Assembly (NCBI GenBank): GCA_017502865.1
Contig: JAFVUD010000004.1
Span: forward strand, 1-64,000
Origin: Alphaproteobacteria bacterium
GTDB taxonomy: Bacteria > Pseudomonadota > Alphaproteobacteria > Rs-D84
Direction of reading: 5' to 3'
DNA: 64,000 nt
Shown here: positions 37,413 to 46,861 of the stretch, piece after piece
Numbering within the stretch: position 1 is the first letter of the stretch
How the letters are laid out: the number at the start of each line of letters is the position of its first letter
Notes under the pieces: generated by a model
What the model was told of the DNA's origin: nothing
Seen by the model: the letters and a program-made list of their open reading frames with translations, nothing else
Database searches by the model: none
Program-made: the position numbers and the translations under genes

Positions 37413-37486
37413 TGGGGTGTCGTCTAATGGTAGGACAAGAGATTTTGGTTCTCTTTATCATGGTTCGAATCCGTGCGCCCCAACCA
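37413..37486 (+). tRNA. trnQ: tRNA-Gln (TTG anticodon)
   Basis: A full cloverleaf has acceptor arms TGGGGTG and CGCCCCA (one G-U), anticodon loop TTTTGGT giving TTG, T-arm GGTTCGAATCC and an encoded CCA. A terminator follows ten bases later. Its last 14 bases recur twice downstream. Confidence 0.97.
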
Positions 37487-37491
37487 AATTC
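37473..37491 (+). repeat. tRNA-Gln 3' end repeat, copy 1 (inside the tRNA)
   Basis: GTGCGCCCCAACCAAA spans the end of the tRNA-Gln acceptor strand, CCA and two further bases. It is the parental copy of a three-copy direct repeat. Confidence 0.85.
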
Positions 37492-37495
37492 AAAA

Positions 37496-37518
37496 ACACC
37501 CCAGCCGGGGTGTTTTTT
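37496..37518 (+). terminator. Terminator of tRNA-Gln
   Basis: ACACCCC and GGGGTGT around AGCC followed by six Ts. Confidence 0.85.
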
Positions 37519-37652
37519 CATTTGCTATGCGCAACGGATTGTACAATCAGTTTCAGTGATTGTACCGCAAAACATTATCAATGTTTTGTACGTGTTTCGG
37601 GAAATCTGCGTTTTCCCAAAAACACTAGTGGGGAACATCCCCACCCCCCTGT

Positions 37653-37671
37653 GTGCGCCCCAACCAAAAAT
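37653..37671 (+). repeat. tRNA-Gln 3' end repeat, copy 2
   Basis: GTGCGCCCCAACCAAA recurs exactly, and copies 2 and 3 agree for 19 bases. No tRNA body precedes it. A terminator follows three bases later, as after the real tRNA. Confidence 0.8.
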
Positions 37672-37673
37672 TA

Positions 37674-37700
37674 AATCGCCCTTGTGGCGATTTTATTTTT
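37674..37700 (+). terminator. Terminator after repeat copy 2
   Basis: AATCGCC and GGCGATT around CTTGT followed by TTATTTTT. Confidence 0.65.
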
Positions 37701-37823
37701 GGTTAGAGCCACGGTTCGTAATCTGCAACGTCAGTTGCCAGTTCGACAATGAGTAGATTTGATAAGTGAAACGCTATCAAATCGTCAGGAATGCCCCGCA
37801 GGCATTTATGCCGAGGGAATTGA

Positions 37824-37842
37824 GTGCGCCCCAACCAAAAAT
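37824..37842 (+). repeat. tRNA-Gln 3' end repeat, copy 3
   Basis: The third exact copy of the 16-base core, 32 bases upstream of the tRNA-Glu -10 box. Confidence 0.8.
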
Positions 37843-37966: not shown

Positions 37967-38725
37967 CTAATTTGATGACTTTTTGCGTGATGGTTTGGAA
38001 TAGTATAATTTCGAATATTCGGCCAGTAAATCAACCATTAAACCATGATAGCCATGTTTATCCCAGAAATGTTCTGCCGCGGTTAATGACGTACGAAAAT
38101 CACAAAATGCAGCCTTTTCTGCATCGATAAAGCCGACAATATTCAAATCATCATCCATAAGGAAGTTCTGGCCAATGTCGTTATGAAACCAGCCGTACAT
38201 GTAATCGGGTTTGGCATCGGCATCTGGTTTCAAATCACGAATTTCTGCAAAATCAACACGGCCGATTTCGTACATAAATTTGGCCAGTTGGTGTGCAATC
38301 TTGGCACGGTTGGCGACAATGTATTTCGCATCAAAATCGCATAACAATTTACCATGAATAAATTCATATCTGCGGACCAGAACGCCGTCCCAATTCATAA
38401 TTTCCATTTCTGGGAAATATATCGGTGAAACAGTTCGCATTGCATCGACAATACGCTTTTCACGGGGACCGGGATTTTCACGTTTCAACAGTGGAATCTT
38501 GAACACATGTTCATCATTTAACATCACCACCAGATTATGACAACCAACACCAAAATCCAATTTTAATTTGCGAACGCCACCACAATTTTTATCCGCCCAG
38601 CCACGCACCATACGGACATATTTATGAACAGATGGATTATTCAAAACAACACGAACACGACTGCGTGTTTTATGATTAGGAATAAATCCACAAACGATAT
38701 TTGCAAACAAACTGCGAACAGACAT
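37967..38725 (-). CDS. Kinase-like (APH-fold) protein, paralogue A
   Basis: This 252-residue protein looks like a small-molecule or sugar kinase of the aminoglycoside-phosphotransferase fold. An N-lobe Lys sits in NDEHVFKIPL (about 70-80). The catalytic loop is WFHNDIGQNFLMDDD (Asp and Asn in the HxDxxxxN pattern). The metal-binding Asp is in VGFIDAEKA. The substrate is unknown. It begins one base inside the stop of its paralogue (TAATG), so the two are an operon. Identity between them is moderate, and the motif order is the same. Confidence 0.75.
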   Translation of the reverse strand: MSVRSLFANIVCGFIPNHKTRSRVRVVLNNPSVHKYVRMVRGWADKNCGGVRKLKLDFGVGCHNLVVMLNDEHVFKIPLLKRENPGPREKRIVDAMRTVSPIYFPEMEIMNWDGVLVRRYEFIHGKLLCDFDAKYIVANRAKIAHQLAKFMYEIGRVDFAEIRDLKPDADAKPDYMYGWFHNDIGQNFLMDDDLNIVGFIDAEKAAFCDFRTSLTAAEHFWDKHGYHGLMVDLLAEYSKLYYSKPSRKKSSN

Positions 38726-39450
38726 TATTTTTTCCCGTTGTATAGTTTTTCGTATTCAATTTGTACCTGGGCCATGAATTCACGTGCAGGCGAACGTTTT
38801 TCATTTTTAAACAAATAACTGAAATCGCCAAAAAAGGCATCTTCCCAGTCAATAAAGGCAATGATTTTATGCGTTTTTTCATCAATTAAAAAATTGTCGC
38901 AAACGTCGCCCTGGGTCCAGCCGAACATATAACCAGACTTTGCATTCTTGGTTGGTTTATACTGGGCAATTTCGGGTGGATTTGCACACGCAATTGTATA
39001 CAAGAAATTCGCAACAACCGGCGCCAATTCATCAATCAATTCCATTGCTGTATTTAATGGCAATTTACGCAACTGGACCCCGTTGATAAATTTATATTTG
39101 CGAACCAACATATCTTTGTATTCCAAAATTTCAACCGGCGGGATATAGACCGGCGACAACGGTGCCAGGGCCGACACAATATCACGTTCACGCAACGCTA
39201 ATTCGTTTGCATCGCTGCGACGCAGGGGAAATTTATAAATATATTCGTCGTTCACACTTATCAACAGGCTGCGGGCCTGGTAGCCGACGAATGTTTTAAC
39301 CTTGCGCAGAGTGCCAATATCGTGACGAATAAACCGAAGATAGCCACCAATATCCGAATTCAATATTACACGAACACGCTTGCGGGTATCTTTGTTCGCA
39401 ATAAACCCGCTTATCACATTTGCAAAAAAACGTCTTAACGATGATGCCAT
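38725..39450 (-). CDS. Kinase-like (APH-fold) protein, paralogue B
   Basis: The 241-residue paralogue of the preceding gene begins with nearly the same N-terminus (SLRRFFANVISGFIANKDTR against SVRSLFANIVCGFIPNHKTR). It keeps the Lys in NDEYIYKFPL, a QGD-x4-N catalytic loop (TQGDVCDNFLID; Gln replaces His) and the metal Asp in AFIDWEDAFFGDF. It is the first gene of the pair. The family resembles choline/ethanolamine and lipopolysaccharide kinases as well as antibiotic kinases, so an envelope role is as likely as any. Confidence 0.75.
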   Translation of the reverse strand: MASSLRRFFANVISGFIANKDTRKRVRVILNSDIGGYLRFIRHDIGTLRKVKTFVGYQARSLLISVNDEYIYKFPLRRSDANELALRERDIVSALAPLSPVYIPPVEILEYKDMLVRKYKFINGVQLRKLPLNTAMELIDELAPVVANFLYTIACANPPEIAQYKPTKNAKSGYMFGWTQGDVCDNFLIDEKTHKIIAFIDWEDAFFGDFSYLFKNEKRSPAREFMAQVQIEYEKLYNGKK

Positions 39451-44810: not shown

Positions 44811-44842
44811 AAACACCCCGCAAGTTTGCGGGGTGTTTTTTT
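44811..44842. terminator. Strong convergent terminator
   Basis: ACACCCCGC and GCGGGGTGT (9-bp arms) with a seven-T run, between the 169-aa gene and the Gly-rich cassette. Confidence 0.85.
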
Positions 44843-45842
44843 ATAATCTGTAAATCTTGATATAACTGGTCGACGAGGTGTTGGTACTGCCGCTGGCACC
44901 ATCTGTGCCACCAAAGCAGCCTGCGTTCGTTGTATCAACAACATGATAGCATACCGCACCACCACCGCCGCCACCGTACGAATACGCCGTGCGACCGCCA
45001 CATGAATAAGAAACCGTTGCACCGCCATTACCACCCGATGCACTGAATGTTGTATCGCCGACAGTTAATGACATGCCACCCCCCATACCGCCCGATGCAG
45101 ACGTGCCGGCCGTTTGGGTTAAATTGTACACGGCATTCGTATCAGCCATTGCACGAACTGTACCGGCCGCACCACCAATGGCACCACCCCCAGATGGTGC
45201 ACGATATGTTTTAATTTCTTGAATCGATGTCCCACCTGTTGAACACCATGCCTGGCCCGAACTGCCCAGGGCATTACTGTTTGTTGTATTTAACGAACCA
45301 GACCCGCCATACGAACCACTGACCGAACAGCCGGCATTCGCACTGGAAACATTATAGCCCGCCGGTACACCCGCACACTTTTCACCATCGCCACCGGCAG
45401 CAACCACAAATTCATCGCCCATAACAACAAAACTGTCCAGACCAGATGCACTGCCCCCGATTCCATATCCGGATTTAATTTCTGCACTGTTGCCATCGCC
45501 ACCACGAAACAAAGATATTTCCATGGGTTCCTGAATACGCAAATTATATGATGCAACCGCACCCATCTGGTCGGCATCATCACCGGCATTGCATTGCCCG
45601 CCACCAAAGCCACCCTGTAATTCGATACGATAACAACCTGCGGGCAATGTTAATGTTTTGCATGTATTTATTTCTGTTTCTTCATAATACAATTCTTTGG
45701 TACCTGTGGCAATACAGCCCCCTTCGCTAATTAGGGGGATATAGTACAGCATACCTTTGGAATCCATAACTTTTAGGGTTGGAGAAGAAACCTGGGTTGT
45801 GTACAAAGGAACCTGAACATCGCCAAAATTTAATACCGCCAT
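44841..45842 (-). CDS. Gly-rich phage-fibre-like protein 2 with N-terminal MDS module
   Basis: A 333-residue protein. Residues about 6-38 form the module FGDVQVPLYTT...SPTLKVMDSKG, shared with the LamG-like protein. Next come LPAGCYRIELQGGFGGG and a long Gly/Ser/Thr-rich region with conserved Cys, ending SSTSYIKIYRL. The Gly-rich part resembles phage tail-tip and adhesin Gly-rich domains that fold as polyglycine-II bundles. No signal peptide is visible. The previous gene ends nine bases upstream in the same frame, separated only by one TAG codon. It may be translated by coupling or readthrough. Confidence 0.75.
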   Translation of the reverse strand: MAVLNFGDVQVPLYTTQVSSPTLKVMDSKGMLYYIPLISEGGCIATGTKELYYEETEINTCKTLTLPAGCYRIELQGGFGGGQCNAGDDADQMGAVASYNLRIQEPMEISLFRGGDGNSAEIKSGYGIGGSASGLDSFVVMGDEFVVAAGGDGEKCAGVPAGYNVSSANAGCSVSGSYGGSGSLNTTNSNALGSSGQAWCSTGGTSIQEIKTYRAPSGGGAIGGAAGTVRAMADTNAVYNLTQTAGTSASGGMGGGMSLTVGDTTFSASGGNGGATVSYSCGGRTAYSYGGGGGGAVCYHVVDTTNAGCFGGTDGASGSTNTSSTSYIKIYRL

Positions 45843-45851
45843 ACAATCACC

Positions 45852-46853
45852 CTAGTTCGTCTTGAAAATTCTAATATAACTGGTCGAAGAAGTACCAACA
45901 CTGCCCGAGCCACCCGGCATACCAGATATACAAACTAAATCACGGGTAAAGCCATTATGCTTAGACGAGTCGATTAAAAATCCACCTGTACATAATGCAG
46001 GCCCACCGCCACCACCATACGAATACGCCGTTGCAATACCACACGACCAACCGACCGTTTCACCGCCAACGCCACCTGTTGCAGATAACGATATGTCTTC
46101 GAATGTTAAATATGCATCGCCACCCGAACCACCGGCATCCGCCGTCGCATTGGTGCCGGGGGTGGCACCCGCACTGCAATTTGCACCGTCAACATTACAT
46201 ACATCAATTGATGTAGTTTTGTACGTGCACGATGTACGCATTGTATTGGTACCATATGGTGCACCGCCACCGCCACCAGCAATTACCGCAATCCCAGACA
46301 TACACGCACCAGAACGTGCATTTATAACCGGCGTATTATAATAACCACGCAGTGCGGTATTTAACCCACCACCACCAGGCAAACCTTCGGTATAAGAATT
46401 TCGACCAATTACTTTACCGGCATTATATCCAGAACATCCATATGTAGCACCATTGCCACCGTTGGCACGAACAACTGTGTCACCCGTTATAAACAGCGTA
46501 TCAACACCCGAAGAACCACCACCTGTCACACCATTTGATGCACACAGTCCAGCACCATCGCCACCACGAAATAAATTTACAGTTGTATCAACAGGTGTAG
46601 AAAAGTCATAGTTTACAACATCTCCTTCGAAACTGGCACCGCCGATGTCTTTGCCAGCACCTTTGCCGCCCTTTAATTCAATACGATATTTGCCAGACGG
46701 CAATGTGATGGATTGACACACATTGACCGTCGCTTCTTCGTAGAACAATTCTTCGTCACCACCCATAACAAAACCGCCCGATGGAACGGTTGCCATTTCA
46801 TAGATAATACCATCTGAGTCCATTAATTTCAAAACAGGCACATCAACAGACAT
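45852..46853 (-). CDS. Gly-rich phage-fibre-like protein 1 with N-terminal MDS module
   Basis: A 333-residue paralogue of the next gene, with a shorter N-terminal module (VPVLKLMDSDGIIYEMA), then ELFYEEATVNVCQSITLPSG and KYRIELKGGKGAG. A Gly-rich core with about 14 Cys ends in SSTSYIRIFKTN, almost the same ending as its paralogue. ATG 46853 (or GTG 46856) has AGGTGG just upstream. It lacks a signal peptide even though the Cys content suggests an oxidising compartment. It lies eight bases after the fibre-like gene. Confidence 0.75.
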   Translation of the reverse strand: MSVDVPVLKLMDSDGIIYEMATVPSGGFVMGGDEELFYEEATVNVCQSITLPSGKYRIELKGGKGAGKDIGGASFEGDVVNYDFSTPVDTTVNLFRGGDGAGLCASNGVTGGGSSGVDTLFITGDTVVRANGGNGATYGCSGYNAGKVIGRNSYTEGLPGGGGLNTALRGYYNTPVINARSGACMSGIAVIAGGGGGAPYGTNTMRTSCTYKTTSIDVCNVDGANCSAGATPGTNATADAGGSGGDAYLTFEDISLSATGGVGGETVGWSCGIATAYSYGGGGGPALCTGGFLIDSSKHNGFTRDLVCISGMPGGSGSVGTSSTSYIRIFKTN

Positions 46854-46861
46854 CACACCAC

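Follow-up and report, generated by a model that had tools for sequence, protein, structure and literature searches.

tRNA-linked repeats (TLRs) have been known since 1978, mainly from Escherichia coli, and are described as being without known function (Stenum et al. 2021, PMC8144298). They sit in tRNA or rRNA operons, singly or several to a locus. In E. coli K-12 there are 22 of them at ten loci, their hallmark being a copied tRNA end of 18–19 bp (PMC8144298); the repeats at tyrT are 178 bp long (Egan and Landy 1978; Rudd 1999; both as cited in PMC8144298). Some E. coli TLR/rtT RNAs are transcribed and processed: read-through transcription of the rrn TLRs, which are reported to be conserved within Enterobacteriales, followed by processing yields RNAs of about 115–173 nt that bind Hfq and CsrA, and the copied end has been suggested to act as an RNase E processing signal (PMC8144298). 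In the tyrT repeats of E. coli K-12 we read a complement of the tRNA end, GAGAAGC or GAGAACC, GGTTCGA, AATCC and the tRNA end itself. The corresponding Rfam family, RtT (RF00391), turned up in 25 of the 200 genomes sampled from the phylum, in some of them as arrays, and units beside tRNA-Tyr, tRNA-Ser and tRNA-Lys in such genomes have the same layout as those at E. coli tyrT.

The locus considered here lies in a stretch of 64,000 nt (herein referred to as the window) from an uncultured ruminant-gut alphaproteobacterium, whose assembly spans 889 kb and is 78% complete. Like E. coli TLRs, the units of this organism and its relatives lie directly 3′ of tRNA genes, are of similar size, occur singly or as several in tandem, have a 3′ end identical to that of the upstream tRNA, and carry a GAGAACC..GGTTCGA motif and a complement of the tRNA end (the 5′ strand of a helix, P1); like the rrn TLRs, they have terminators on both sides (PMC8144298). 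They differ in that their hosts are alphaproteobacterial, their cores are distinct (module A, family B and the unit 1 family), within a single genus they follow tRNA genes of about 20 types, none was found after 5S rRNA in the nine congeners searched, and the stable stems of module A are almost without G-U pairs. The Rfam RtT family is alike in class and layout; however, its model does not match the alphaproteobacterial units. A further likeness is to REP/BIME sequences, which are also intergenic and dispersed and in which, as in module A, GTAG precedes an imperfect hairpin; unlike these, the units described here are tied strictly to tRNA 3′ ends, of which they copy the local one, and no Y1 (RAYT-type) transposase was found in the genome assembly. 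We consider it likely that the locus is a two-unit array of the TLR/rtT class behind tRNA-Gln, subject to the processing, unit turnover and core exchange proposed below.

Anatomy of the tRNA-Gln locus

The tRNA-Gln (TTG) gene occupies positions 37413..37486 of the forward strand, on which all features of the array lie (ARAGORN; Rfam tRNA score of 57.7 bits), and its 3′ end, GTGCGCCCCAACCA, is the first of three copies. Exactly as a preliminary description of this DNA had claimed, the 16-mer GTGCGCCCCAACCAAA occurs at 37473, 37653 and 37824, at spacings of 180 and 171, and copies 2 and 3 agree over the 19 nt GTGCGCCCCAACCAAAAAT; all three are identical for 14 nt leftwards from the CCA. No other occurrence of GTGCGCCCCAACCAAA with at most one mismatch was found in the 889-kb assembly. 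By simple arithmetic, about 3e-5 exact occurrences of a 16-mer are expected in 64 kb on both strands, and for 8 of the 44 tRNA genes of the genome an exact 12-nt match to the gene's own 3′ end lies no more than 500 nt downstream, compared with none in upstream, reverse-complement and tRNA 5′-end controls; the repeats are hence not a product of chance. Internal tRNA 12-mers, as a further control, matched the same downstream regions in 2 of 325 cases. The copied end of the window units, at 14 exact nt, is shorter than that of E. coli TLRs (18–19), and in other units of the same genome it is mostly 19 nt.

The terminators that had been noted after copies 1 and 2 are indeed present. The first lies directly 3′ of tRNA-Gln (37492..37518; ACACCCC-AGCC-GGGGTGT followed by a T run; −16.2 kcal/mol) and the second opens unit 2 (37673..37699; −11.2 kcal/mol); folding of the locus gave no terminator hairpin downstream of copy 3. 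Unit 1 (37487..37666, 180 bp) ends in copy 2 (37653..37666, an exact match including the CCA), and one relative of it was found, at the tRNA-Gln gene of the genome G020. Its segment GCGCAACGG (37529..37537) is complementary to the tRNA-Gln 3′ end, ranks near the top as a complement of this local end and, as the 5′ strand of P1, pairs with 37649–37658 in the minimum free energy fold, in which P1 closes four hairpins (37541–37565, 37567–37589, 37592–37625 and 37628–37644, together 37541..37644). This fold has an energy of −54.2 kcal/mol and a z-score of −6.85 against shuffles, and some of the hairpin arms change together between the genome of the window and G020. Unit 2 (37667..37837, 171 bp) ends in copy 3 (37824..37837, again exact and including the CCA) and belongs to family A, which follows many tRNA genes of the genus. 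It contains the structured module A (37741..37822; 92.3 bits with our module A model, R1), composed of hairpin 1 (37756..37783, preceded by GTA(G) and covarying) and hairpin 2 (37795..37817, CCC-GCA-GGCA..TGCC-GA-GGG, with covariation in both stems), and its fold gains modestly over shuffles (z of −2.0). Two palindromes singled out earlier are genuine and sit in different units, that at 37567–37589 in unit 1 and that at 37756–37783 in unit 2.

Dispersal and turnover of units in the genus

When 40 relatives were searched with the locus, the segment from copy 2 to copy 3 proved to represent a family dispersed in the genus. In the loci that we fetched, many tRNA genes are followed, mostly at a distance of 130–230 bp, by copies of their own 3′ end, frequently as tandem copies, and the structured module follows tRNA genes of about 20 isoacceptors in this genus of uncultured gut Alphaproteobacteria, usually with the local 3′ end last. 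R1 matches in 55 of 99 relatives, all except one of them within the genus, and an exact 25-mer of module A occurs in public genomes only in uncultured proteobacterial MAGs, many of them named from ruminant or deer gut. Among 100 distinct module matches (a set from loci picked for strong R1 matches that includes the 15 model sequences and is not a random sample), 87 lie at most 700 nt after a tRNA, 82 of these in the orientation of the tRNA, and some of the matches without a tRNA sit at contig ends. The local tRNA end, scored at 11 or more of 12 positions, follows 51 of the 82 same-orientation modules, against a mean of 1.6 and a maximum of 5 for the ends of other tRNAs; by eye, many of the remaining modules appear to be followed by shortened copies of the local end. 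Within module A, 14 of 25 pairs changed on both sides compared with 8.4 in shuffles, in an alignment of 15 units (A2) whose structure was drawn by hand from that alignment, so that the pair counts lean towards the drawn structure. Two arrangements depart from the usual one: tandem pairs of module A inside single units with no tRNA end between them (loci L098, L047 and L139), and modules inverted relative to the tRNA (L069, at tRNA-Pro TGG in the genome of the window, and L052 in the genome G004).

These distributions bear on two readings of the repeats that do not involve a TLR-class unit. The preliminary description had suggested that the three copies may be att sites left behind by small integrated elements; on this reading they would be scars or remnants made by a tyrosine integrase acting on the tRNA 3′ end, and direct repeats of the tRNA end, a tandem layout and variable unit number are what such elements would leave. 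The proposal did not hold up and we regard it as very improbable: one family occupies about 20 isoacceptors and carries at each the end of the local tRNA, the interior is conserved and covaries, the units are mostly 130–230 bp and too short for an integrase gene, and the module 25-mer has no exact match in viral contigs. Our search of the genome and its congeners found no dedicated integrase; only two tyrosine recombinases are encoded in the 78%-complete assembly and in several fuller, unit-rich congeners. Two is the number expected for XerC and XerD. Equally improbable is that the units are degenerate, functionless tandem duplicates of tRNA genes, a reading that would account for the tRNA 3′ end closing each unit and for the terminator that follows most such ends; their interiors are not tRNA sequence, are common to units at different tRNAs and covary, and their distinct, non-tRNA anatomy occurs also in E. 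coli. The further suggestion, of a structured RNA that has a tRNA-like end, agrees with the data better than att scars do, given the P1 pairing, the fold of unit 1 and the TLR/rtT anatomy.

Variation between relatives is by whole units. The preliminary description had named a lack of size variation at the tRNA-Gln locus in any strain as one observation that would refute it, and such variation was found: tRNA-Gln is followed by a unit of the unit 1 type only (G020), by one of the unit 2 type only (G017, G042 and G050), or by no clear copy. The cores vary in a different manner. Module cores up to 97% identical occur at different tRNAs of one genome, their ends remaining local, and the module nearest in sequence sits at a different isoacceptor in about 86% of 73 arrays. 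Nearest-neighbor modules nevertheless share a genome in 18% of cases against 5% when shuffled, and an isoacceptor in 14% against 5%, which indicates some local spread together with some inheritance in place. Exchange between resident units would be the simplest account of similar cores at different tRNAs.

The complementary helix and relation to the TLR class

The 5′ side of many units is complementary to the local tRNA 3′ end, such that the copied end could close the P1 helix. A first test, based on duplex energy over whole units, mildly favored the local end (mean rank fraction of 0.33), not in every unit, and ranked the complementarity of unit 2 to its own end 51st of 74. A second test, with a different score and only the segment between terminator and core (a region narrowed after the first test was seen), placed the local end in the top tenth for 42% of 60 alphaproteobacterial units, 74% of 23 beta- and gammaproteobacterial units and both unit 1 relatives, against about 5% for the sense-strand control in the two large sets; the tested units are related to one another, and p-values are not to be read literally. 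Family B gave 40% of five units against a control of 20%, too few to judge. RNAalifold recovers P1 unprompted in the beta/gamma units, with 5 of 8 pairs changed on both sides. P1 complementarity is thus a trend in sequence over many units, clear in unit 1 of the window and weak in unit 2.

The Rfam RtT model (RF00391) had no match that reached its gathering cut-off in the window, the rest of the genome or 14 alphaproteobacterial loci, and Rfam scans of the window and those 14 loci at gathering or permissive thresholds returned only tRNAs and chance or tRNA-derived matches. Conversely, R1 gave weak matches only, with no clear recognition, on E. coli and beta/gamma loci; cross-class relatedness was therefore assessed with a second model, R2, built solely from 12 beta/gamma TLR units. 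In 71 alphaproteobacterial loci (220 kb, chosen for having tRNAs and units), R2 had 21 matches, of which 20 follow a tRNA and share its strand and one falls on a tRNA, with a best E-value of 4.8e-5; the two units of the window were not among these matches, and two other units of the same genome scored E-values of 7e-4 and 7e-3. A class-wide search with R2 found matches in 14 of 289 alphaproteobacterial genomes, representing 13 genera, and at most of the loci that we read the local tRNA end was present as an orphan copy; several lacked a tRNA in the stretch or showed no exact copy, and the genome of the window had no match at an E-value of 0.001 in this search. A loose pattern, GAGAACCN{2,30}GGTTCGA, was also tried over the phylum and set aside, since most of its hits are due to chance in large G+C-rich genomes; it was of use only for a few genomes that we selected by their high counts.

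Because the RtT model misses the alphaproteobacterial units and R1 does not clearly recognize those of beta- and gammaproteobacteria, class membership rests on R2 and on shared anatomy. The order P1, GAGAACC..GGTTCGA, AATCC, tRNA end and CCA is found in the genus and is weak in the two units of the window; the beta/gamma units were gathered partly by pattern and partly by RtT, which favors the shared motif. We conclude from these comparisons that the alphaproteobacterial units belong to the TLR class, to which those of the window are tied through family (unit 2) and anatomy and not through R2. The TLR class emerges here as widespread, with units that vary between tRNA genes and usually carry the local tail.

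Maintenance as RNA or as DNA

Across 19 columns of module A that pair well, picked after the pair table was seen, G-U accounts for 0.29% and A-C for 0.81% of cells, compared with 7.7% G-U in the acceptor and T stems of 116 tRNAs from the same loci. This paucity is limited to the stable stems, since columns outside the 19, in upper hairpin 1, do contain G-U and all 25 pairs together hold 79 G-U against 69 A-C. Module A nonetheless contains 369 double-change cells and many pair-type switches, the latter inferred on a poorly resolved tree. The near-absence of G-U from stable stems is unusual for RNA and suggestive, short of proof, of upkeep as DNA palindromes.

It is accordingly possible, if rather unlikely, that the modules are non-autonomous DNA mobile elements (REP-like or MITE-like palindromes) that insert at tRNA 3′ ends, duplicating the target end, with the structure acting as DNA. 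Few G-U pairs despite so many double changes speak for such elements, as do similar modules at different tRNA types and the inversion at tRNA-Pro(TGG) in two genomes, and hairpin 1, GTAG included, is similar to one of REP type close to E. coli tyrT (a weak R1 match of 8 bits). Yet a Y1 transposase was found neither in the genome of the window (G000) nor in nearly all congeners, nearly all modules hold one orientation and position, simple target duplication leaves the 5′ complement of the local end unexplained, and gene conversion of old variants could likewise remove G-U intermediates. More doubtful is a narrower version, in which tRNA-linked palindromic DNA elements of gut Alphaproteobacteria, with flanks matched to the local tRNA as copy and complement, spread without a transposase of their own and keep Watson–Crick-only hairpins through a DNA-level process such as template switching.

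We favor the TLR/rtT-class reading, in which a unit comprises, besides its terminator and structured core, a complement of the tRNA 3′ end and a copy of that end with the CCA. Copy and complement can pair as P1, a helix like that of an acceptor stem and tailed by CCA, which fits the idea that the copied end is a processing signal. By analogy with E. coli TLRs, the units are probably transcribed by read-through of the tRNA terminator, and, as has been suggested for those repeats, RNA processing enzymes may cleave the transcripts at their tRNA-like ends. Recombination between the direct repeats would alter unit number, and cores would be swapped from one tRNA gene to another, for which gene conversion among resident units is the simplest route, the ends staying local. 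At the level of sequence, our data document the array, the local copies, a covarying core, a class-wide anatomy and the presence or absence of whole units between species. TLR anatomy behind many tRNA genes of distant Alphaproteobacteria, together with a helix that could form from the local tRNA end, offers a testable idea on the purpose of the copied end, and the units constitute a large natural data set for how TLRs arise, move and are processed.

Three minor observations concern the surroundings of tRNA genes and of the array. A second recurrent sequence, (C/T)ACTTCGCCAAGGCTTCGTGTGGCACAG or CCCTTCGCGTCTG..CTTCGGGTGGCA, stands immediately after the CCA of tRNAs in the genome of the window (L059, L061, L062 and L086) and of tRNA-Gln in G018, G012 and G015 (L013, L022 and L020, respectively), and looks like another tRNA-downstream element. 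Downstream of the array, two similar neighboring genes on the reverse strand (37967–38725 and 38725–39450) share a kinase-like motif (HNDIGQNF/GDVCDNF..IVGFIDAE) and are perhaps phosphotransferases of the choline kinase/APH type. Farther on, two mutually similar, glycine-rich long reading frames lie side by side at 44841–46856, also on the reverse strand.
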